DNA from: Cytobacillus oceanisediminis 2691
GTDB lineage: Bacteria; Bacillota; Bacilli; Bacillales; Cytobacillaceae
Length of the DNA stretch: 64,000 nucleotides
Direction: 5' to 3'
NCBI RefSeq assembly: GCF_000294775.2
Contig: NZ_CP015506.1
Span: forward strand, 533,501-597,500
Part shown: in pieces, positions 8,724 through 39,915 of the stretch
Layout of the letters: every line of letters starts with the position of its first letter
Numbering within the stretch: position 1 is the first letter of the stretch
The notes under the pieces: model-generated
Told to the model about the DNA's origin: nothing
The model's input: only the letters and a program-made list of their open reading frames with translations
Database searches by the model: none
Translations under genes and position numbers: made by a program

Positions 8724-8990
8724 AAAAAGTCCCTGCTGAATTTTCATTCAGCAGGGACGAATGTATTCGCGGTACCACCCTGATTGTAAGTATAGAACTT
8801 ACCACTTCACAAAATAACGGCTAAACCGTCTTATTTCAGAAAAGAAATAAGAAGCTCCAGAAACGTAATTCATGATCTCCTTTGTACTGGTTTTCAGCAC
8901 CACCAGCTCTCTGTAACAGGGAGGATACCACTACTTCAATTCCTTCAAAGCATTTAAGTATTAGGATGCTTTATATCTTAAACGCTTTTA
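8724..8990 (-). ncRNA. T-box riboswitch leader of phhA-phhB (probably tyrosine-specific)
   Basis: On the minus strand the hallmark T-box core AGGGTGGTACCGCG lies at 8781-8768. It is followed by a terminator with 12-base arms (8758-8747 and 8740-8729) and a U run. Upstream is the Stem I AGAGAG plus GGTGGTGCTGAAAACC region. The Specifier-loop strand reads GAATTACGTTTCTGG. UAC (Tyr, 8867-8865) follows the GAA loop-E motif and precedes a purine, and the opposing strand has AGTA. UUC (Phe, 8862-8860) is the alternative. Uncharged tRNA-Tyr would permit transcription, matching a tyrosine-forming enzyme. Confidence 0.88.
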
Positions 8991-31756: not shown

Positions 31757-33142
31757 TCAATAGGGATGAGGAACCTGTCCCTCTGCTCCGCAATACTCTT
31801 TAATCAGCCTGGCTGCTTTCGTTTGGCTGATGCCAAGGTCGTTTGCCACTTTTCTGGAGGATTTATGGGTCTGATACGATCTTCTTACCAGAATCCTTTT
31901 GGTTTCATCCAGAGCTTTGTCCAGGCTAGTGGAATGAGATGGGTATACTGCTTGATGAGTATTTTCCTTGATCATGTCAGGGAGATCAGAGACCTGAATA
32001 ATGGAATTGCTGATAATGACTAATCTTTCAATCAGGTTTTCGAGCTGGCGCACATTTCCCGGCCAGGAATAGTGAGTAAGAACATTAAGGCACTCTTCAG
32101 AAATGACTTTATTCTCTTTATATTTTTGGTTAAATTTATTCAGGAAATTATAGGTGAGCGGAATGATATCTTCCCTTCTTTCCCGCAATGGCGGCAGATG
32201 AATATCAATTACATTTAAACGATAAAATAAGTCTTCTCTAAATGATTTGTTTTCAATCATAGTGGTCAGATTCTGATTAGTTGCCGCTATGATGCGGACA
32301 TCCACTTTCTTTATTTCGCTGCTTCCGACAGGGATGAACTGTTTCTCCTGTATGAGCTGAAGCAGTTTTGCCTGTACGGAAAGGGGCATTTCTCCGATTT
32401 CGTCCAGGAAGAGGGTGCCGCCGTCCGCTGCTTCAATTAATCCTTGTTTTCCTAATTTATTTGCCCCGGTGAAGGCGCCTTTTGAATAGCCAAATAGTTC
32501 GGACTCCAATAGTTCTTCCGGAATGGCAGCGCAATTGATGGCAAGAAATGGCCCTTTATTCCGGTTGCTGACTTTGTGAATATATTGAGAAAAGGCACCC
32601 TTTCCGGTTCCGGATTCTCCCAGAATAAGAATATTTGAATCTGTTGGAGCTACTTTTTTACAAAACTCCAATATTTCTTTAATCTCTCCGCTGTTGGTTA
32701 CAATTGTTATTTCCTTTTCTTCATGCTGAGTCGATTTTGACTCGATTTTATCCTCCCTTGCATTCACCATATTAATTTTTTGTATTTCCGTAGAGGTGAT
32801 GACAACCAGTTCAATTTCGTATTTGTTATTTAAGATCGGGATGGCCGTAGTCATGAGCTCTGCCCCGATATATGTCTGCTGTCTTAAGTAGCACGGCTCT
32901 TTCCGCCGATATACCTCAGGAACAATAGAAGGCTTCCAGTAGCCCTTTTCAAAAAGTTCCACATTGTACTTTCCAATTACATCCCTTGGCTTAAGTCCAT
33001 AGTGCCTCTCACATACTTTATTCACATATAGAATCCGCATTTCACCATCTAAAACGAAGATTTCATCAGAAGAATAATCAAGAATTTTTAACAGGGTTTC
33101 CAATGTCATTTCTACATTGCCTGTATTTGTTGGCATTTTCAT
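31757..33142 (-). CDS. sigma-54-dependent enhancer-binding regulator (PAS-AAA-Fis)
   Basis: A 461-residue activator. A PAS sensor domain covers about residues 12-120 (SSDEIFVLDGEMRILYVNKV). The AAA+ domain has Walker A GESGTGKG, the sigma-54 contact loop ELFGYSKGAFTGA and Walker B GGTLFLDEIGEMPL. A C-terminal helix-turn-helix follows (SSRKVANDLGISQTKAARLI). It activates RNA polymerase carrying sigma-54 (SigL). It is divergent from the catabolic operon whose promoter has a perfect -24/-12 element, and presumably senses the substrate or product through PAS. Confidence 0.95.
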   Translation of the reverse strand: MKMPTNTGNVEMTLETLLKILDYSSDEIFVLDGEMRILYVNKVCERHYGLKPRDVIGKYNVELFEKGYWKPSIVPEVYRRKEPCYLRQQTYIGAELMTTAIPILNNKYEIELVVITSTEIQKINMVNAREDKIESKSTQHEEKEITIVTNSGEIKEILEFCKKVAPTDSNILILGESGTGKGAFSQYIHKVSNRNKGPFLAINCAAIPEELLESELFGYSKGAFTGANKLGKQGLIEAADGGTLFLDEIGEMPLSVQAKLLQLIQEKQFIPVGSSEIKKVDVRIIAATNQNLTTMIENKSFREDLFYRLNVIDIHLPPLRERREDIIPLTYNFLNKFNQKYKENKVISEECLNVLTHYSWPGNVRQLENLIERLVIISNSIIQVSDLPDMIKENTHQAVYPSHSTSLDKALDETKRILVRRSYQTHKSSRKVANDLGISQTKAARLIKEYCGAEGQVPHPY

Positions 33143-33177
33143 TCGGTGAAGCCCTCCTGAGTCATTTTTGATTCAAG

Positions 33178-33219
33178 AATACCAGATATTGAGTATATTT
33201 TAACTCAATATCTGGTATT
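33178..33219. promoter_or_regulatory. putative upstream activating sequence for the sigma-54 activator
   Basis: A perfect inverted repeat with 17-base arms AATACCAGATATTGAGT (33178-33194) and ACTCAATATCTGGTATT (33203-33219) around 8 bases. Its centre is about 70 bases upstream of the -24 element, the usual distance for an enhancer-binding protein site. It lies between divergent genes, so a terminator role is unlikely. Confidence 0.75.
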
Positions 33220-33268
33220 TTTCAGTAAATTTTCAATTGTTTGTTTAATTATTAAGGGTTTTCACTAT

Positions 33269-33285
33269 TGGCACAGTACTTGCAT
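33269..33285 (+). promoter_or_regulatory. sigma-54 (-24/-12) promoter of the catabolic operon
   Basis: TGGCAC (33269-33274), 5 bases, TTGCAT (33280-33285) is a perfect match to the -24/-12 consensus with conserved GG and GC 10 bases apart. It lies 38 bases before the reductase start. Confidence 0.92.
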
Positions 33286-33322
33286 TAAAAAGGTGTATAG
33301 AACATATAAAGGAGGTTCAGGA

Positions 33323-34342
33323 ATGGGCAATTATCCAGATGCTTTCGATATCACCATTATAGGCGGAGGCCCAGTTGGTCTTTTTACAGCTTTTTACACT
33401 GGTATGCGCCAGGCTTCGGTGAAAATTATTGAGAGTCTTCCGCAGCTGGGCGGACAATTATCAGCACTATATCCGGAAAAATATATTTATGACATAGCTG
33501 GTTTTCCTAAGATAAGAGCTCAGGAACTGATAGATAATTTGATAAAGCAAATGAATCAATTTAATCCATCTGTCTGCTTAGGGGAATCAGTGGAAGGCAT
33601 CGTCCGCCTGTCTGATCAATCATTTGCGATTCACACGAATAAAGGGACCCATTATACGAAGGCAGTGATTATTACGGCAGGGAACGGTGCTTTCCAGCCA
33701 AGGAAATTAAATATCGGCAGCGAGGACAAATTTGAAAATAAAAATCTTCATTATTTTGTCCAAGACTTAAATCAGTTTGCCGGCAAAAAGGTTGTGATCT
33801 TTGGTGGAGGGGATTCAGCGGTTGAATGGGCTCTGATGCTTGAGCCGATTGCCGGCAAGGTAACGCTCATTCATAGGAGAGATAAGTTCCGGGCGCATGA
33901 GCATAGTGTGGAACGATTGAGACATTCCAGTGTGGAAATGCTGACACCTTATATTCCAGTGGAGCTGGCAGGTGCAGAAGAAATTGAATACGTAATGGTA
34001 GAAAACACGGCTAGCGGGGAGACAATGCTCATCCCGGCAGATGATGTACTAGTGAATTTTGGATTTGTATCTTCATTAGGCCCCATTAAAGAGTGGGGGT
34101 TGGAAATAGAGAAAAATGCGATCCTGGTAAACTCCAAAATGGAAACGAATATTCCAGGAATCTATGCGGCAGGTGACATCTGTACCTATGAAGGCAAAGT
34201 AAAGCTTATAGCCAGCGGATTTGGGGAAGCGCCGGCAGCTGTCAGCAATGCAAAGGTTTATATTGATCCAGGTTCAAAGGTCCAGCCGCTCCATAGTACA
34301 AGCATTATGGCAGATAAGGAAAAAACCGGTTCAGCAATCTAA
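33323..34342 (+). CDS. ferredoxin-NADP reductase type 2 (YumC-like) / FAD-dependent oxidoreductase
   Basis: A 339-residue two-dinucleotide-binding flavoprotein related to thioredoxin reductase but lacking its CxxC. FAD motif is [21 protein letters not shown](P) motif is [17 protein letters not shown]; the FAD end motif is [13 protein letters not shown]. This matches Bacillus YumC-type ferredoxin/flavodoxin reductases. As first gene of the operon it probably supplies electrons, via a ferredoxin encoded elsewhere, to the Rieske oxygenase that follows. ATG 33323 is behind AAAGGAGG. Confidence 0.88.
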
Positions 34343-34373
34343 AGGAAAAATTCATTTAAGAAGGAGACAAATC

Positions 34374-35459
34374 ATGACTGCTTACAATAAAGTGCAAAAT
34401 GCAACAAATCGTACATTTGAAAGAACCTTAACCTATGACAAATACACAGATCCCAAAGTTCTGGAAAAAGAGATGGACCTTGTGTTTTCAAGGTCCTGGC
34501 AGCTCGTAGGACATGTTAGTCAGGTGGAAAAGGCTGGAGATTTCTTTACTGCAGAAGTGGCCGGCGAGCCTATTATCGTAAACCGCGGTAAAGATGAAGT
34601 AGTCCGTGCCTTTTACAATGTTTGTCCACATCGGGCAACAAAGCTTGAAAAAAATGCAGCCGGGAATAAAAAGATTCTCCAATGTTCTTATCATGGATGG
34701 ACATTTAAGCTTGATGGCCAGCTGAATAAAGCGCCTAACTTTAGAGGGGAAGACGAGGCTTGTGTAAAGGATGCCTGTCTGCGTTCGGTGCGGATGGAAA
34801 TTTTGGAATCACTTATCTTTGTAAATTTGGATGACAATGCAAAGCCATTAAGTGAGTCATATGGAGATTTCTTTGAAAGGTTGAGCAAGAATTCCTTTTT
34901 AAGCGAACTAAAAAGAACCAGCCAAAAAACACGTACATTCAAAGCGAACTGGAAGGCTTTTATGGATAACTACCTGGAGTGTGACCACTGCCATGTTGCA
35001 CATCCAAGCTTCGTTGCTGCACTTGATATGAATGATTATCAGATTATTACGTGTGAGAATTATTCCATGCAAGGGACAATTGTTAAGCCAGATAAAAAAT
35101 ATGGAACAGTTGATTTAAATGATGCCGAAATGCAAGGCGGCCAATTCTACTGGCTATGGCCAAATCTGATGCTGACCATTTATCCGGGGCCAGGCAATAT
35201 GGCGACCATTCAAATTATTCCGATTGATCATGAAACATCCATGGCTGTCTACACCTATTATTTCCGTGATGAGAACCTGTCCCAGGCGGAAAAGGATTTA
35301 ATGACGTTTGCGGAGCAAGTCCGCTCGGAAGATATTGAATTGGTAGAATTGGAACAAATTGGTTTTTGCTCCCGAGCTTTCAGCAAAGGCAGATATTCAT
35401 CCTCAGAAAAAGCAATTGTTCAATTTCATGAAATGGTATTGGAGGCCCTAAATGAGTAA
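34374..35459 (+). CDS. Rieske-type oxygenase alpha subunit, probable quaternary-amine (carnitine?) monooxygenase
   Basis: A 361-residue oxygenase. Rieske ligands are C84-x-H86 (NVCPHRATK) and C104-x2-H107 (LQCSYHGWTF). The mononuclear iron site is in NYLECDHCHVAHPSF: His205, His210 and the bridging acidic residue Glu202, where ring-hydroxylating dioxygenases normally have Asp. Glu at this place, with E-x2-H-x4-H spacing, is known for carnitine oxygenase CntA. Neighbours (reductase, aldehyde and D-malate-type dehydrogenases, BCCT transporter) point to a trimethylammonium substrate, best L-carnitine. ATG 34374 follows AAGGAGAC. Substrate is inferred. Confidence 0.85.
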   Translation: MTAYNKVQNATNRTFERTLTYDKYTDPKVLEKEMDLVFSRSWQLVGHVSQVEKAGDFFTAEVAGEPIIVNRGKDEVVRAFYNVCPHRATKLEKNAAGNKKILQCSYHGWTFKLDGQLNKAPNFRGEDEACVKDACLRSVRMEILESLIFVNLDDNAKPLSESYGDFFERLSKNSFLSELKRTSQKTRTFKANWKAFMDNYLECDHCHVAHPSFVAALDMNDYQIITCENYSMQGTIVKPDKKYGTVDLNDAEMQGGQFYWLWPNLMLTIYPGPGNMATIQIIPIDHETSMAVYTYYFRDENLSQAEKDLMTFAEQVRSEDIELVELEQIGFCSRAFSKGRYSSSEKAIVQFHEMVLEALNE

Positions 35460-36900
35460 AATAACCGGAGTTCAGCCAGCAAAAAAGTATTTAATGATTA
35501 ATGGAAAAAAAGTAGAAACAGATCGATACGCATCTCTTTTTTCACCTTATTCCGGGGAAGAAATTGCCCAAATCGCGATGGCGAATAAAGAACAGACTGA
35601 AATGGCCATTGAAGCTGCTTACGAATCCAGGCATTTGATGGCAAAAATGCCAGCTTACAAGAGAGCTGAGATTTTAGAAAAAGTCGTTTCGCTTTTGATT
35701 GAAAAAGCGGATCAGGCTGCAGAGATCATTACCCGAGAGTCGTCCAAACCTATTATGTTCTCAAAAGCGGAAGTTGCCAGAACGGTCGAAACGTATAAAT
35801 TTTCGGCTGAGGAAGCTAAGCGCATTCATGGGGAAACGATTCCTTTTGATGCTGCTTCAGGCGGGGTTGGCCGTATTGGATATACATTGAGAGAGCCGAT
35901 TGGGGTCATAGGAGCCATAACTCCTTTTAATTTCCCTATGAATCTTGTAGCTCATAAGGTAGGACCGGCAATTGCCGCAGGGAATACAGTTGTCTTGAAG
36001 CCAGCCTCGCAGACACCGCTCTCGGCACTGTTTATAGCCGAATTATTTGAAGAGGCAGGCCTGCCGCCGGGTGTGTTAAACGTTATAACCGGTCCTGGAA
36101 GTGTAGTAGGGGAAGAAATTGTCAGAAATGACCTGGTCAGCATGGTCACCTTTACAGGAAGTCCGGAAGTTGGGATTGGGATACGCAGCAGAGCAGGCTT
36201 AAAGAAAACAACATTGGAGCTGGGATCGAATTCAGCCTTAATCATTGATAAAGATACAGATGTCGATCAGATTATTGACCGCTGCATAATGGGGGCTTTT
36301 TCGAATCAGGGTCAGGTTTGTATTTCGCTTCAGCGCATCTATGCACATGAAGAGGTATATGAAGAATTCACAGAAAAATTTATTCAGGCAGCAAAGCAGC
36401 TGAAAGTTGGCGATCCGCTTGCACCGGATACGTATATTTCTTCTCTAATTTCAAAAGGAGAGGCTGATAGAGTACTAGGATGGATTGAGGAAACAAAAAG
36501 CACGAATGCATCTATTGCAGCCGGAGGAAGCCTTCGAAATGGGGTGCTTGAGCCTACGATTATTATCAATGCGGAGCATGATTTAAAGGTATCCTGCCAG
36601 GAAGCCTTTGCTCCCGTTGTCGTCGTAAACAAATTCAGTTCCATTGAGGATGCCATAAAGCATGTCAACAACTCGCGGTTTGGCCTGCAGGCGGGAATAT
36701 ACACAAATAATGTGAAGCATGCCCTCTTTGCTTCGCAGGAACTTCATGTTGGCGGAGTTATAATCAATGATGTTCCAACCTACCGTGTTGACCAGATGCC
36801 GTATGGCGGTGTAAAGGAAAGCGGCACCGGACGGGAAGGCATCAAATATGCAGTTGAAGAAATGACCGAGATGAAATTAATTGTCTGGAATAATAACTAA
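35452..36900 (+). CDS. NAD(P)-dependent aldehyde dehydrogenase (candidate malic semialdehyde dehydrogenase)
   Basis: A 482-residue ALDH. Catalytic Cys290 is in NQGQVCISLQR and general base Glu256 in TTLELGSNSAL (Ser replaces the usual Gly after LG). The cofactor region is AITPFNFPMNLVAHKVGPA. It overlaps the oxygenase gene by 8 bases, so it is tightly coupled and most likely oxidises the aldehyde produced by the oxygenase. For carnitine that would be malic semialdehyde to malate. Betaine aldehyde oxidation is an alternative, but then the next gene has no role. Confidence 0.9.
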   Translation: MSKITGVQPAKKYLMINGKKVETDRYASLFSPYSGEEIAQIAMANKEQTEMAIEAAYESRHLMAKMPAYKRAEILEKVVSLLIEKADQAAEIITRESSKPIMFSKAEVARTVETYKFSAEEAKRIHGETIPFDAASGGVGRIGYTLREPIGVIGAITPFNFPMNLVAHKVGPAIAAGNTVVLKPASQTPLSALFIAELFEEAGLPPGVLNVITGPGSVVGEEIVRNDLVSMVTFTGSPEVGIGIRSRAGLKKTTLELGSNSALIIDKDTDVDQIIDRCIMGAFSNQGQVCISLQRIYAHEEVYEEFTEKFIQAAKQLKVGDPLAPDTYISSLISKGEADRVLGWIEETKSTNASIAAGGSLRNGVLEPTIIINAEHDLKVSCQEAFAPVVVVNKFSSIEDAIKHVNNSRFGLQAGIYTNNVKHALFASQELHVGGVIINDVPTYRVDQMPYGGVKESGTGREGIKYAVEEMTEMKLIVWNNN

Positions 36901-36918
36901 AGGTAAAGGGAGATTTTT

Positions 36919-38010
36919 GTGAAAATTTATAAAGTTGCGGTTATAGCAGGTGATGGAATTGGACCTGAAGTGATTGGCGAAGGAATCAAAGTACTAAATA
37001 AAGTGGCGGCGATGGATTCAGGTTTCCGCTTTAATTTTACTTATTTCCCTTGGGGCTGTGAATTTTATGCGAAACACGGAAAGATGATGGATGAAAATGG
37101 CATTGAAGAATTAAAGAAGTTTGATGCCATTTATTTGGGGGCAGTCGGGTTTCCCGGCGTCCCTGACCATATCTCTTTATGGGATCTGCTTTTAAGAATC
37201 CGCAAAGAATTTGATCAATATGTGAATATCCGGCCTGTTCATTTACTGAAAGGGGCAAAAACTTCCTTAGTGGATGTAAAACGGGAAGACATAAATATGC
37301 TTTTTATCCGTGAGAATACCGAAGGAGAGTATGCGGGTGCTGGTGAATGGCTGCTTAAGGGGCAGCAAAATGAAGTTGTCCTGCAAAACAGTGTGTTTTC
37401 CCGAAAAGGAACGGAAAGAATCATCCGGTATGCGTTTGAAGCAGCTCGTAAGGAAGGAAGGTCTCTCACAAGCATATCAAAGGCGAACGCATTAAATTAT
37501 TCAATGGTTTTCTGGGATCAGGTTTTTGAAGAAATAAGCTCTGAATACCCTGATGTGGAAACAGCCTCCTACCTTGTAGATGCCGCTGCCATGCTGATGG
37601 TTAAGGATCCAAAGAGGTTTGAAGTGGTCGTCACTTCCAATTTATTTGGCGATATATTAACAGACCTGGGTGCTGCTATTGCAGGAGGAATAGGGCTTGC
37701 CGCTGGTGCCAACATTAATCCTGAAAGAAAGTATCCTTCCATGTTTGAACCTATTCATGGCTCTGCTCCTGATATTGCAGGTAAGGGGATTGCCAATCCG
37801 CTTGCTTCCATTTGGTCAGCCAGTCAGATGCTTGACTTTTTTGGTTATGAGGAATATGGAAAACAAGTGCTTGGAGCCATTGAGGATTTGCTGATCGAGG
37901 ATGAGACACTTACACCGGATATGGGAGGAACCGCATCTACCGCGGAAGTGGGTAATCGGATTATTGACATCATGGAGACCCGGCTTGTATCTGGTAAACT
38001 AAATGTTTAA
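36919..38010 (+). CDS. isocitrate/isopropylmalate family dehydrogenase, D-malate/tartrate dehydrogenase type
   Basis: A 363-residue beta-decarboxylating dehydrogenase starting at GTG behind AAAGGGAG. Features are IAGDGIGPEVIGEG, the substrate-binding Arg region LRIRKEFDQYVNIRPV, RENTEGEYAG, the metal-binding VVTSNLFGDILTDLGA and the C-terminal EPIHGSAPDIAGKGIANP. Length and LYLGAVGFPGVPDHISLWDL-like region fit tartrate/D-malate dehydrogenase (B. subtilis YcsA type) better than LeuB, and no leu genes are nearby. In a carnitine route it would oxidatively decarboxylate D-malate to pyruvate. Confidence 0.85.
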   Translation: MKIYKVAVIAGDGIGPEVIGEGIKVLNKVAAMDSGFRFNFTYFPWGCEFYAKHGKMMDENGIEELKKFDAIYLGAVGFPGVPDHISLWDLLLRIRKEFDQYVNIRPVHLLKGAKTSLVDVKREDINMLFIRENTEGEYAGAGEWLLKGQQNEVVLQNSVFSRKGTERIIRYAFEAARKEGRSLTSISKANALNYSMVFWDQVFEEISSEYPDVETASYLVDAAAMLMVKDPKRFEVVVTSNLFGDILTDLGAAIAGGIGLAAGANINPERKYPSMFEPIHGSAPDIAGKGIANPLASIWSASQMLDFFGYEEYGKQVLGAIEDLLIEDETLTPDMGGTASTAEVGNRIIDIMETRLVSGKLNV

Positions 38011-38361
38011 AAGTCAGCGGATATCATAGGAAGAATTGATTCTTCCTATGGTATAGGTTGATTTTTCTTCCATTTCTTTTATACTAAACTTTTATTAGCG
38101 GCGGTCGTTATAAACCTGTTTCCACTTTTTAGAAGGGAAGAATACTGATGCACCGCAAAGTCTGATAAATAGATAAAGTGACCGTTACGGGTCAGGGAAT
38201 CTGCTGACGATCAAAATAATTGTGAAGGTGAAAAGGAAGAGTACTATTTTTTATGCGCTAGTCCGATTTCCCCTTTTCTCTCATTTATTTTTTGGAATAA
38301 CAGGAAACCGCTTACATTTAAAATACTGAAAATTCAATATTCTGGAAAGAGGAGTGTTGGC
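38011..38361. other. 351-base intergenic region with terminator-like hairpin and possible structured leader
   Basis: A hairpin with 11-base arms (CATAGGAAGAA 38025-38035 / TTCTTCCTATG 38040-38050) follows the dehydrogenase. It lacks a clean T run, so partial readthrough into the transporter gene is possible. Further on (about 38150-38230) there is a small TGACC/GGTCA hairpin near GCACCGCAAAG, reminiscent of a structured leader, but no known riboswitch core was recognised. GGAAAGAGGAG closes the stretch before the transporter ATG. Confidence 0.45.
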
Positions 38362-39915
38362 ATGAACGGTAAAAAAACTGTCTTTTTTTCCTCGTTAGCC
38401 ATAAGTTTGGTTTTAATAAGTATAGGGGTCTTTGCCCCAAAGCAAATGGAAACCTTTTCAAATCATTCACTGGAATTTATCTATAATAACCTGGGCTGGT
38501 TTATTCTGGGCAGTGTCTTTTTCTTCTTTGCTTTTTGTATGTATATTGGGCTTTCAAGATTCGGGAAAATCAGGCTGGGGGACGATCATGATCGGCCAGA
38601 ATACAAAACAGCTACATGGGTAGGGATGCTGTTCAGTGCCTCTATTGGGATAAGTCTTGTATTTTGGGGTGTGGCAGAACCAGTTTCATACTATATTGAT
38701 CCTCCCTTTGGGAAAGGATCTTCAGAAGAATCCGCAAAGCTGGCAATGCAATTTGTTTACCTGCATTGGGGGGTCTCTGCATGGGCGTGTTATGCAGTTG
38801 TAGGAGTCTCCTTAGCATTTTTCCAATTCCGCAAAAAGCTGCCGGCCTCACTGAGTTCTGTTTTTTATCCATTAATAGGAGACAAAATTAGGGGCCCTTT
38901 TGGCAAACTGATTGATGTCGTTGTCATTCTTTCCATTGTCATTGGCATAGCCACATCGCTGGGATTTGGAACGCTTCAAGTGAATAGCGGTATGAATTAT
39001 CTGTGGGGTCTTCCGGTAAGCTTTTATACCCAAGTTGCTATTATTCTCGTTGTAAGTTTTATTTATGTCGGTTCCACTGTTTCAGGCCTTCAGGGAGCGA
39101 TGAAGCATTTGTCCAACCTTAATATGCTGCTGGCATTTGCACTATTGGCATTCGTATTGTTTCTTGGACCAACCCAATCCATCTTAAAGATCTTTTTTCA
39201 AGGGATAGGGGATTACGCCCAGAATTTCATTGGGATGTCGTTTAGGACTGAGCCCTATAGTGATGGAACCTGGATTGCAAGCTGGACACTGTTTTATTTT
39301 GGCTGGTGGATCGCCTGGGCTCCGCTTGTCGGCAGTTTCGTAGCCAGAATTTCAAAGGGCAGAACCATCAAAGAGTTTATGATCGGGGCCATCTTTATCC
39401 CTGTTGCAGGAGCATTCTTCTGGTTTGCCGTGATGGGCGGATCGGCCATTGATCTCATTCAGAACATGGGCGAAACAGCGATTGCAACGGCGGTTTCCAC
39501 CGATGTAACCTCTGCCTTATTTAAGTTTTTTGATTATTTTCCAATGAGTGTCTTTTTAAGTATTTTAGCTATGGTACTTGTACTTGTTTTCTTTATAACC
39601 TCTGCGAATTCTGCTGTTTTTGTATTAGGGATGATCAGTGAAAATGGAAACCCTAATCCATCTCACTCAACAAAAGTCATATGGGGGATTGTAATTGCTG
39701 GGGTCTCTGCTGTATTAATTATGACAGGAGGCCTATCCGGCTTACAGTCAGCCCTGGTTGCCACATCCATCCCGTTAGCCATTCTCATGCTTTTCATGTG
39801 TTACTCCACTTATAAGGGCTTAAAAGATGAGCTAAAAGCGATGAGTGAAAGCCGGAATCAAGATGAGCCTATCGTTAAAAGTATAAGAAAGAAAGCCGTT
39901 GCCAAAAAGGCATAA
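38362..39915 (+). CDS. BCCT family betaine/carnitine/choline transporter
   Basis: A 517-residue twelve-helix transporter. BCCT hallmarks are GMLFSASIGISLVFWGVAEP early (helix 3 region) and the tryptophan-rich ASWTLFYFGWWIAWAPLVGSF segment in the substrate site (helix 8), followed by VARISKGRTIKEF. BCCT proteins import quaternary ammonium compounds, driven by sodium or protons. Placement after the Rieske/ALDH/D-malate genes supports a carnitine or related substrate. The short C-terminus argues for uptake for catabolism rather than osmosensing. Confidence 0.92.
   Translation: MNGKKTVFFSSLAISLVLISIGVFAPKQMETFSNHSLEFIYNNLGWFILGSVFFFFAFCMYIGLSRFGKIRLGDDHDRPEYKTATWVGMLFSASIGISLVFWGVAEPVSYYIDPPFGKGSSEESAKLAMQFVYLHWGVSAWACYAVVGVSLAFFQFRKKLPASLSSVFYPLIGDKIRGPFGKLIDVVVILSIVIGIATSLGFGTLQVNSGMNYLWGLPVSFYTQVAIILVVSFIYVGSTVSGLQGAMKHLSNLNMLLAFALLAFVLFLGPTQSILKIFFQGIGDYAQNFIGMSFRTEPYSDGTWIASWTLFYFGWWIAWAPLVGSFVARISKGRTIKEFMIGAIFIPVAGAFFWFAVMGGSAIDLIQNMGETAIATAVSTDVTSALFKFFDYFPMSVFLSILAMVLVLVFFITSANSAVFVLGMISENGNPNPSHSTKVIWGIVIAGVSAVLIMTGGLSGLQSALVATSIPLAILMLFMCYSTYKGLKDELKAMSESRNQDEPIVKSIRKKAVAKKA

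Follow-up and report, generated by a model that had tools for sequence, protein, structure and literature searches.

Which substrate is served by a bacterial locus that encodes a Rieske oxygenase beside a D-malate-type dehydrogenase? We present here an analysis of such a locus from Cytobacillus oceanisediminis 2691 (Bacillota; Bacilli; Bacillales), located at positions 31757 to 39915 of a 64,000-nucleotide (nt) stretch of contig NZ_CP015506.1 (NCBI RefSeq assembly GCF_000294775.2, positions 533,501 to 597,500 of the forward strand), which is called the window throughout. The gene set is probably an aerobic L-carnitine catabolic module, in which carnitine would be split into trimethylamine (TMA) and malic semialdehyde and the latter converted through D-malate to pyruvate. 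A carnitine operon of the Bacillales is already in print as a suggestion (Piskol et al. 2024, PMC11353897). An earlier note, made from the letters of the window, had proposed a complete module under sigma-54 control, and genes of all six family types that it named are present, as follows.

31757..33142, minus strand: sigma-54-dependent activator with PAS, AAA+ and helix-turn-helix domains, 461 amino acids (aa); Pfam PF00158 (1.8e-70), PF18024 and PF08448.
33175..33222, no strand assigned: inverted repeat with 20-nt arms, one mismatch and an 8-nt spacer; candidate activator binding site.
33269..33284, plus strand: sigma-54 promoter TGGCAC-N5-TTGCA, an exact consensus match.
33323..34342, plus strand: thioredoxin-reductase-like ferredoxin-NADP reductase (FNR), 339 aa; its best PDB matches are FNRs.
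34374..35459, plus strand: Rieske oxygenase alpha subunit, 361 aa; best PDB match CntA; residues E202, H205, H210, D320, C203/C206, Y200, Y222 and Y293.
35452..36900, plus strand: aldehyde dehydrogenase (ALDH), 482 aa, a proposed malic-semialdehyde dehydrogenase; nearest named relatives ALDH21 and archaeal lactaldehyde dehydrogenase.
36919..38010, plus strand: beta-decarboxylating D-malate/tartrate-type dehydrogenase, 363 aa, GTG start; TIGR02089.
38021..38054, plus strand: terminator-like hairpin of 15 pairs, after the dehydrogenase gene.
38303..38316, plus strand: cre-like (CcpA) site GGAAACCGCTTACA, upstream of the transporter gene.
38362..39915, plus strand: BCCT-family transporter, 517 aa; Pfam PF02028.

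The FNR gene start is best placed at ATG 33323, with AAAGGAGG upstream, and not at 33293. The motif Glu202-x2-His205-x4-His210 is exact in the 361-aa frame starting at 34374. The six genes had been described as running in one direction with tight spacing; the activator gene is in fact divergent from the operon, and the spacing is tight from the FNR through the dehydrogenase gene (31 base pairs [bp] between FNR and oxygenase, an 8-nt overlap of oxygenase and ALDH, and 18 bp between ALDH and dehydrogenase) but widens to 351 bp before the BCCT gene.

The set recurs in related loci. The best 79 named matches were listed, and 62 of these (L057 to L118) were scored on stretches of up to 9 kb to each side. 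The oxygenase type of the window, defined by a best match of at least 50% to the oxygenase of the window or of Priestia, was found in 48; 13 carry RO2, a type with a paralogue in the host genome, and 1 carries another type. Among the matches listed, the nearest named relative of the window oxygenase is from Cytobacillus oceanisediminis (96%). The two types differ in tight linkage: an ALDH with a D-malate/tartrate-type dehydrogenase was found in 44 of the 48 window-type loci versus none of the 13 RO2 loci, and an activator homologue in 47/48 versus 0/13. Without identity cut-offs, the two genes of the pair share a strand and lie no more than 3 kb apart in 42/48 and 0/13 loci, respectively. The window-type loci comprise 45 with a window-type ALDH, 1 with an ALDH of the malic-semialdehyde dehydrogenase (MSA-DH) type, 43 with a window-type dehydrogenase and 1 with a DmlA-type enzyme; a BCCT transporter is present in 27 and a sodium:solute symporter (SSS) in 17. 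The RO2 loci hold one DmlA-type gene and one FNR gene. In an earlier order-level sample, 55 of 397 genomes gave an oxygenase match at E <= 1e-20, and all 17 window-type loci fetched from it carry the ALDH and the dehydrogenase, one of them with a broken oxygenase gene; several genomes of this sample recur among the 79 listed loci.

The RO2 region of the host genome (L055 and L162, C1:2858500-2890000) contains an amine oxidase-like gene, a permease, ABC and CoA-type genes, a further ALDH and a tartrate-dehydrogenase-type gene, these names being judged from sequence by eye except where BLAST matches were available; it is perhaps another amine catabolic cluster. A sister oxygenase at L056:8514-14256 is accompanied by a BCCT, the same activator type, FNR and ferredoxin, with no match to the ALDH or the dehydrogenase in that cluster, a candidate gamma-butyrobetaine version.

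The oxygenase is most similar to CntA. CntA is its best PDB match (3.5e-66, versus 1.1e-30 for the best non-CntA entry), and in the structural check that had been proposed, an AlphaFold model built from 24 sequences (mean pLDDT 83.8, with low values at about residues 85 to 134) was nearest to CntA (E 5.1e-32, TM 0.80) and then to stachydrine demethylase (1e-24). The Rieske ligands C84, H86, C104 and H107 and the 2-His-1-Asp residues H205, H210 and D320 are present. The bridging Glu and Cys-x2-Cys (E202, C203 and C206) occur in 46/46 aligned sequences; the Glu, which had been taken as evidence for carnitine, is not specific, since all three residues are also found in RO2 and in an Stc2-like protein. 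Y200, Y222 and Y293 correspond to the pi-cation Tyr203, the polar Tyr225 and Tyr295 of CntA, with 45 Y and 1 F, 46 Y, and 46 Y of 46, respectively; the position equivalent to CntA Phe258 differs between the two alignments made. In trees of 73 and 49 rows, the oxygenase belongs to a clade of Bacillota proteins, and the proteins sister to this clade (L053/L056 and RO2) are also from Bacillota. CntA and YeaW cluster apart from it, among further proteins of proteobacteria and actinobacteria, and the Stc2 side is distant.

The dehydrogenase belongs to the tartrate/D-malate family TIGR02089 (491.4 bits, cut-off 470.4); it scores 485.3 bits on PRK08194, below the cut-off of 501, and 399.3 bits on PRK03437, a model named 3-isopropylmalate dehydrogenase, just above the cut-off of 393. 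It is 51.5% identical to the Acinetobacter baumannii enzyme and 49.7% identical to Escherichia coli DmlA. Identification as LeuB, which the earlier note had set as a check, was rejected: in a tree, the protein groups with DmlA and the A. baumannii malate dehydrogenase (MDH), and E. coli LeuB lies apart (branch 99 SH-aLRT). A dehydrogenase 67.5% identical to that of the window occurs at L161:9098-10204, amid thiolase and acyl-CoA dehydrogenase-like genes.

The ALDH family holds as described earlier, with the catalytic Glu and Cys kept (E256 and C290 in 46/46 aligned sequences, window included), and what had been missed is that the enzyme is not of the MSA-DH type. Three Burkholderia-type entries, for which no substrate is given, lead its PDB matches, followed by moss ALDH21 (succinic semialdehyde dehydrogenase) and archaeal lactaldehyde dehydrogenase; among the NCBIfam models, too, lactaldehyde dehydrogenase scores best (531 bits, cut-off 650). 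The substrates of ALDH21 and lactaldehyde dehydrogenase would resemble malic semialdehyde, by a carboxylate in one and an alpha-hydroxyl in the other.

An FAD reductase gene had been reported, and the gene is there, but its type had been missed: it encodes a thioredoxin-reductase-like FNR and not CntB, the FMN and [2Fe-2S] reductase that partners CntA (group Va Rieske oxygenases). Its best PDB matches, 6gas (1.9e-160) and 3lzw (3.2e-151, 506 bits), are both FNRs, and 3lzw is presumably Bacillus subtilis YumC. A second FNR copy elsewhere in the genome is 70% identical, making the operon copy a paralogue. In Priestia megaterium, the genes run activator, FNR, ferredoxin, oxygenase, ALDH and tartrate dehydrogenase, and the ferredoxin adjoining the FNR is of the single 4Fe-4S type (Fer4_13); the host genome has one homologue of it, 64% identical, at C1:3908743. 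Across the 48 loci, FNR occurs in 22 and ferredoxin in 13 (both in 12, and in one a ferredoxin without FNR). The FNR gene directly precedes the oxygenase gene, with a gap of 9 to 77 bp as in the window, in nine loci and lies 4 kb away in one. A weak CntB-like match appears in one locus (L089, 29% over 39% of CntB), and the best CntB match of the host genome reaches 33% over residues 15 to 225 of 318. The available part of PMC5209329 names proteins annotated as thioredoxin reductases as possible partners for Rieske oxygenases from thermophiles, none of them for carnitine.

Sigma-54 control, as claimed in the earlier note, is supported by the activator domains, a conserved exact -24/-12 site and an rpoN gene in the host genome, which together place the operon among sigma-54-regulated ones. 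The site TGGCACAGTACTTGCA at 33269-33284 ends 38 bp before the FNR start. It is weak alone, because 3 matches with at most one mismatch were seen across the window versus 2.46 expected by chance; its conservation in relatives is what counts. A site with at most one mismatch lies between the activator and the first operon gene in 42/42 scored relatives (28 exact; 5 of the 47 activator-bearing loci went unscored, having no listed gene downstream in the expected order), and mononucleotide shuffles of the same stretches equal the observed match at a mean frequency of 0.0019. A GAGT/ACTC core is common to the best inverted repeats of several relatives and absent from others.

The transporter had been counted as part of a single module, and the signs that it is probably a separate unit had gone unnoticed. 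This view follows from the terminator-like hairpin at 38021-38054 and the cre-like site at 38303-38316; with the 351-bp gap, they make membership in the sigma-54 unit seem unlikely. The hairpin proves little alone, because 15 such sites were found across the region versus 8.9 in shuffles; a similar stem is visible in an alignment of 13 leaders of relatives. Of 30 transporter leaders scored against the cre consensus (window included, some of SSS type), 21 contain the cre-like site with no more than one mismatch, versus 0.39 expected from shuffles, which suggests separate carbon control of uptake. A T-box leader on the minus strand at 8750-8957, the sole Rfam result on the window, lies far from the operon.

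Transporters vary among the loci. Five BCCTs of another type beside the oxygenase (L073, L074, L089, L093 and L102) score 471 to 511 bits on the CaiT carnitine model, above the betaine/choline models and below the CaiT cut-off of 541. A search for Opu genes, limited to a few loci, found an Opu-type ABC system in L101 and an OpuAC quaternary-ammonium binding protein in L095 of Aneurinibacillus tyrosinisolvens. In L095, the window oxygenase type also shares the locus with an enzyme of the tartrate-dehydrogenase family (604 bits, cut-off 470) and with an ALDH of the succinic semialdehyde dehydrogenase/MSA-DH type (TIGR01780, 665 bits, cut-off 646), which retains four residues of A. baumannii MSA-DH (R166, R284, S447 and C290). 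In or beside the cluster at L037:11015-13703, L057:4411-7093 and L100:11671-14366, an alpha/beta hydrolase (PF07859 in L037) accompanies a second BCCT; the A. baumannii cluster also has a PF07859 hydrolase, and this type is a possible acyl-carnitine esterase. At L035:12218-14431, in Priestia and in others, a sodium:solute symporter with DUF3311, in some cases with a GDSL hydrolase, takes the place of the BCCT; the best named model of this symporter is monocarboxylate permease, below cut-off, and it may carry a product rather than carnitine.

Alongside the observed gene content, conservation, promoter and cre-like motifs and dehydrogenase family, the substrate, electron partner, products and regulation can be predicted as follows. 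Carnitine would enter via the BCCT carrier. Electrons would pass from NAD(P)H through the FNR to a 4Fe-4S ferredoxin encoded elsewhere in the genome and on to the oxygenase, which would hydroxylate C4, adjoining the nitrogen, with TMA leaving and malic semialdehyde staying. The aldehyde would be (R), and the malate formed from it by the ALDH would be (R)-, that is, D-malate, because C3 of (R)-carnitine is untouched; the tartrate/D-malate-type dehydrogenase would then oxidize and decarboxylate D-malate to pyruvate and CO2. The PAS/AAA+ activator would turn on the four-gene operon from the sigma-54 promoter, and the carrier gene, probably its own unit, would be under carbon catabolite control. 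The pathway and its stereochemistry, as the earlier note argued them, appear likewise in the available part of PMC11353897, and the ALDH-dehydrogenase pair of the conserved loci agrees with them. Judged from its genes, the module most likely works like the CntA-to-MDH pathway, with L-carnitine as substrate. We do not class it with CntAB, since it departs from that system in descent, in its lack of CntB and in part of the pocket.

A number of observations weigh against this carnitine assignment. A clade uniting the Bacilli proteins with CntA/YeaW was rejected (approximately unbiased [AU] test, p 2.75e-5, 49 chosen rows), and with it the earlier idea that the oxygenase is CntA by descent. RO2 is likewise nearest to CntA, and closeness to CntA leaves the substrate unfixed because RO2 stands in another gene setting; the three CntA-type Tyr are also shared by RO2 (14/14). 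The arginines R110 and R445 of the ALDH are invariant, but lactaldehyde dehydrogenase has both too; in ALDH21, the aligned Arg residues presumably bind the substrate. The bridging Glu, the three Tyr and R110/R445 were all rejected as decisive, being common to relatives with other or unknown roles. Of the carnitine contacts of CntA named in the available part of PMC7948474 (Tyr203, Tyr225, Tyr295, Asn270, Tyr315 and Phe319), the last three are not kept: all 46 aligned proteins have T at the position of Asn270, 42 have A and 4 have M at that of Tyr315, and all 46 have a gap at that of Phe319. The ALDH shares 35% identity with MSA-DH of A. baumannii, and the substrate residues Arg166, Arg284 and Ser447 (PMC11353897) are replaced by H, S and R. 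The ALDH of L095 is encoded some 3.8 kb away from the oxygenase and might just as well act as a succinic semialdehyde dehydrogenase. Neither CntB/YeaX nor, at a length of at least 55 aa, a ferredoxin homologue was matched among the window open reading frames from 22001 to 48000, and the available stretches of 26/48 loci contain no such FNR. The full set is missing in 4/48 loci (L078, L091, L100 and L092, the last a 3.8-kb contig). With loose cut-offs, some ALDH appears in 3/13 and a tartrate-dehydrogenase type in 1/13 RO2 loci, and the contrast with RO2 is one of tight linkage only, because RO2 in the host genome has such genes farther out, one of the tartrate-dehydrogenase type at a distance of about 9 kb and an ALDH at about 16 kb. 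The window BCCT scores best on the glycine-betaine BCCT model of NCBIfam (603 bits, cut-off 650), as does the second BCCT type of L037 and L057.

Several of these points are shared by an unlikely alternative, that the substrate of the oxygenase is a different quaternary amine (gamma-butyrobetaine, D-carnitine or some unknown hydroxylated betaine) and that the ALDH and dehydrogenase process the matching aldehyde and hydroxy acid. The pocket differing from CntA at N270, Y315 and F319, the separate oxygenase clade, the ALDH without the MSA-DH residue set and the tartrate-dehydrogenase-type genes in other clusters of the host genome all fit it, as does the statement in PMC11353897, seen in part, that DmlA-type enzymes accept several hydroxy acids. 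Gamma-butyrobetaine, however, would yield succinate and leave no role for a dehydrogenase type present in 44/48 loci. The same enzyme would be idle in an N-demethylating module for glycine betaine, choline or stachydrine, as the earlier note held for betaine and choline; we regard such a module as extremely improbable, although the BCCT is best on a glycine-betaine transporter model and the oxygenase scores higher on GbcA than on any other NCBIfam model. That score is 140 bits over residues 9 to 218 only (cut-off 670), a partial match like those of CntA and YeaW (154 bits each, confined to the N-terminal part); in the Stc2-like protein and five relatives, by contrast, the match spans almost the whole length (419 to 529 bits). 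The position of CntA Y203, kept in the aligned set, is N in the Stc2-like protein. The phylogenetic check against glycine-betaine and aromatic oxygenases came out the same way, since joining the Bacilli proteins to the Stc2/GbcA-like side was rejected (AU p 1.2e-4, 49 chosen rows), with group Vb represented by one Stc2-like protein (neighbours named stc4 and stc3) and five proteins with near-full-length, sub-cut-off GbcA matches, and with no protein above the NCBI GbcA cut-off and no plant choline monooxygenase among the references. Assignment as a GbcA, stachydrine or aromatic oxygenase was rejected on the partial match and this grouping. It is very unlikely that the genes stand together for osmolyte adjustment, or as two unrelated pathways (amine oxidation and tartrate/hydroxyaldehyde use) under one switch: the transporter does seem a separate unit with its own elements and its type differs between loci, but the oxygenase-ALDH overlap and the conserved gene set speak for one pathway, and the D-malate-type dehydrogenase suggests carbon use.

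On balance, we favor the view that the Bacillota built an aerobic carnitine-to-pyruvate route independently of the Proteobacteria, with their own oxygenase clade, an FNR and 4Fe-4S ferredoxin, an ALDH of another lineage (judged from identity and residues) and a sigma-54 switch, and that cntB-based surveys overlook an entire group of aerobic TMA producers; one pathway may have been built twice, from different parts. According to the part of PMC5433236 (Rath et al. 2017) available, 34 Bacilli sequences were not accepted as genuine cntA, being phylogenetically distant and without a syntenic cntB; a few Firmicutes with cntA/B had been described before, and two of its cntA sequences are from Enterococcus. 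The FNR-ferredoxin chain may explain that lack of cntB, and some Bacilli omitted from lists of carnitine degraders may belong there. The conserved set with a substitute electron chain is a concrete, testable reason to re-examine them. Among the papers listed, at the level of titles and abstract beginnings, we found no experimental work on a Bacilli carnitine oxygenase and none on the electron chain, regulation or spread of the Bacillales carnitine operon.

The closest known system is the A. baumannii cluster (LysR, mdh, BCCT, hydrolase, cntA, MSA-DH and cntB), for which the carnitine-to-pyruvate pathway was reconstituted and D-malate identified by chiral HPLC, with the same stereochemistry (PMC11353897). 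The two share an importer, a Rieske oxygenase, an ALDH, a D-malate dehydrogenase, a reductase and a regulator, with identities to the window of 51.5% for the dehydrogenase, 35.3% for the oxygenase, 35% for the ALDH and 31% for the BCCT; Klebsiella and Psychrobacter plasmid clusters have the same functional set as A. baumannii. In the window, the oxygenase belongs to another clade, the ALDH lacks R166/R284/S447, the FNR replaces CntB, a sigma-54 PAS activator replaces LysR, and the BCCT is probably controlled separately. A transplanted Acinetobacter cluster was rejected, given an oxygenase outside CntA/YeaW and an ALDH at 35% identity with another residue set. In E. coli, dmlR-dmlA-yeaV-yeaW-yeaX likewise places a D-malate dehydrogenase beside a BCCT and a Rieske oxygenase, but the 15-kb stretch has no ALDH and YeaX is a CntB-type subunit; DmlR is LysR-type. 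The reductase belongs to the same family as the Bacillus-type FNR, which Priestia encodes next to a ferredoxin; here, a second, operon-borne copy is assigned to a Rieske oxygenase. The gbu/bbu pathway of anaerobic Firmicutes is not known to include a Rieske oxygenase. It also forms TMA from carnitine, via gamma-butyrobetaine, but with another gene cluster, described for anoxic gut bacteria (PMC10989800). Within the Bacillales, the Sporosarcina newyorkensis cntA operon is type E in PMC11353897 (Suppl. Fig. S5), one of two that might make substantial TMA, and PMC5433236 found no cntB in this species. Sporosarcina loci L074 and L080 carry the present set and L078 carries it without the dehydrogenase, and we infer that the S. 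newyorkensis oxygenase belongs to the window clade.

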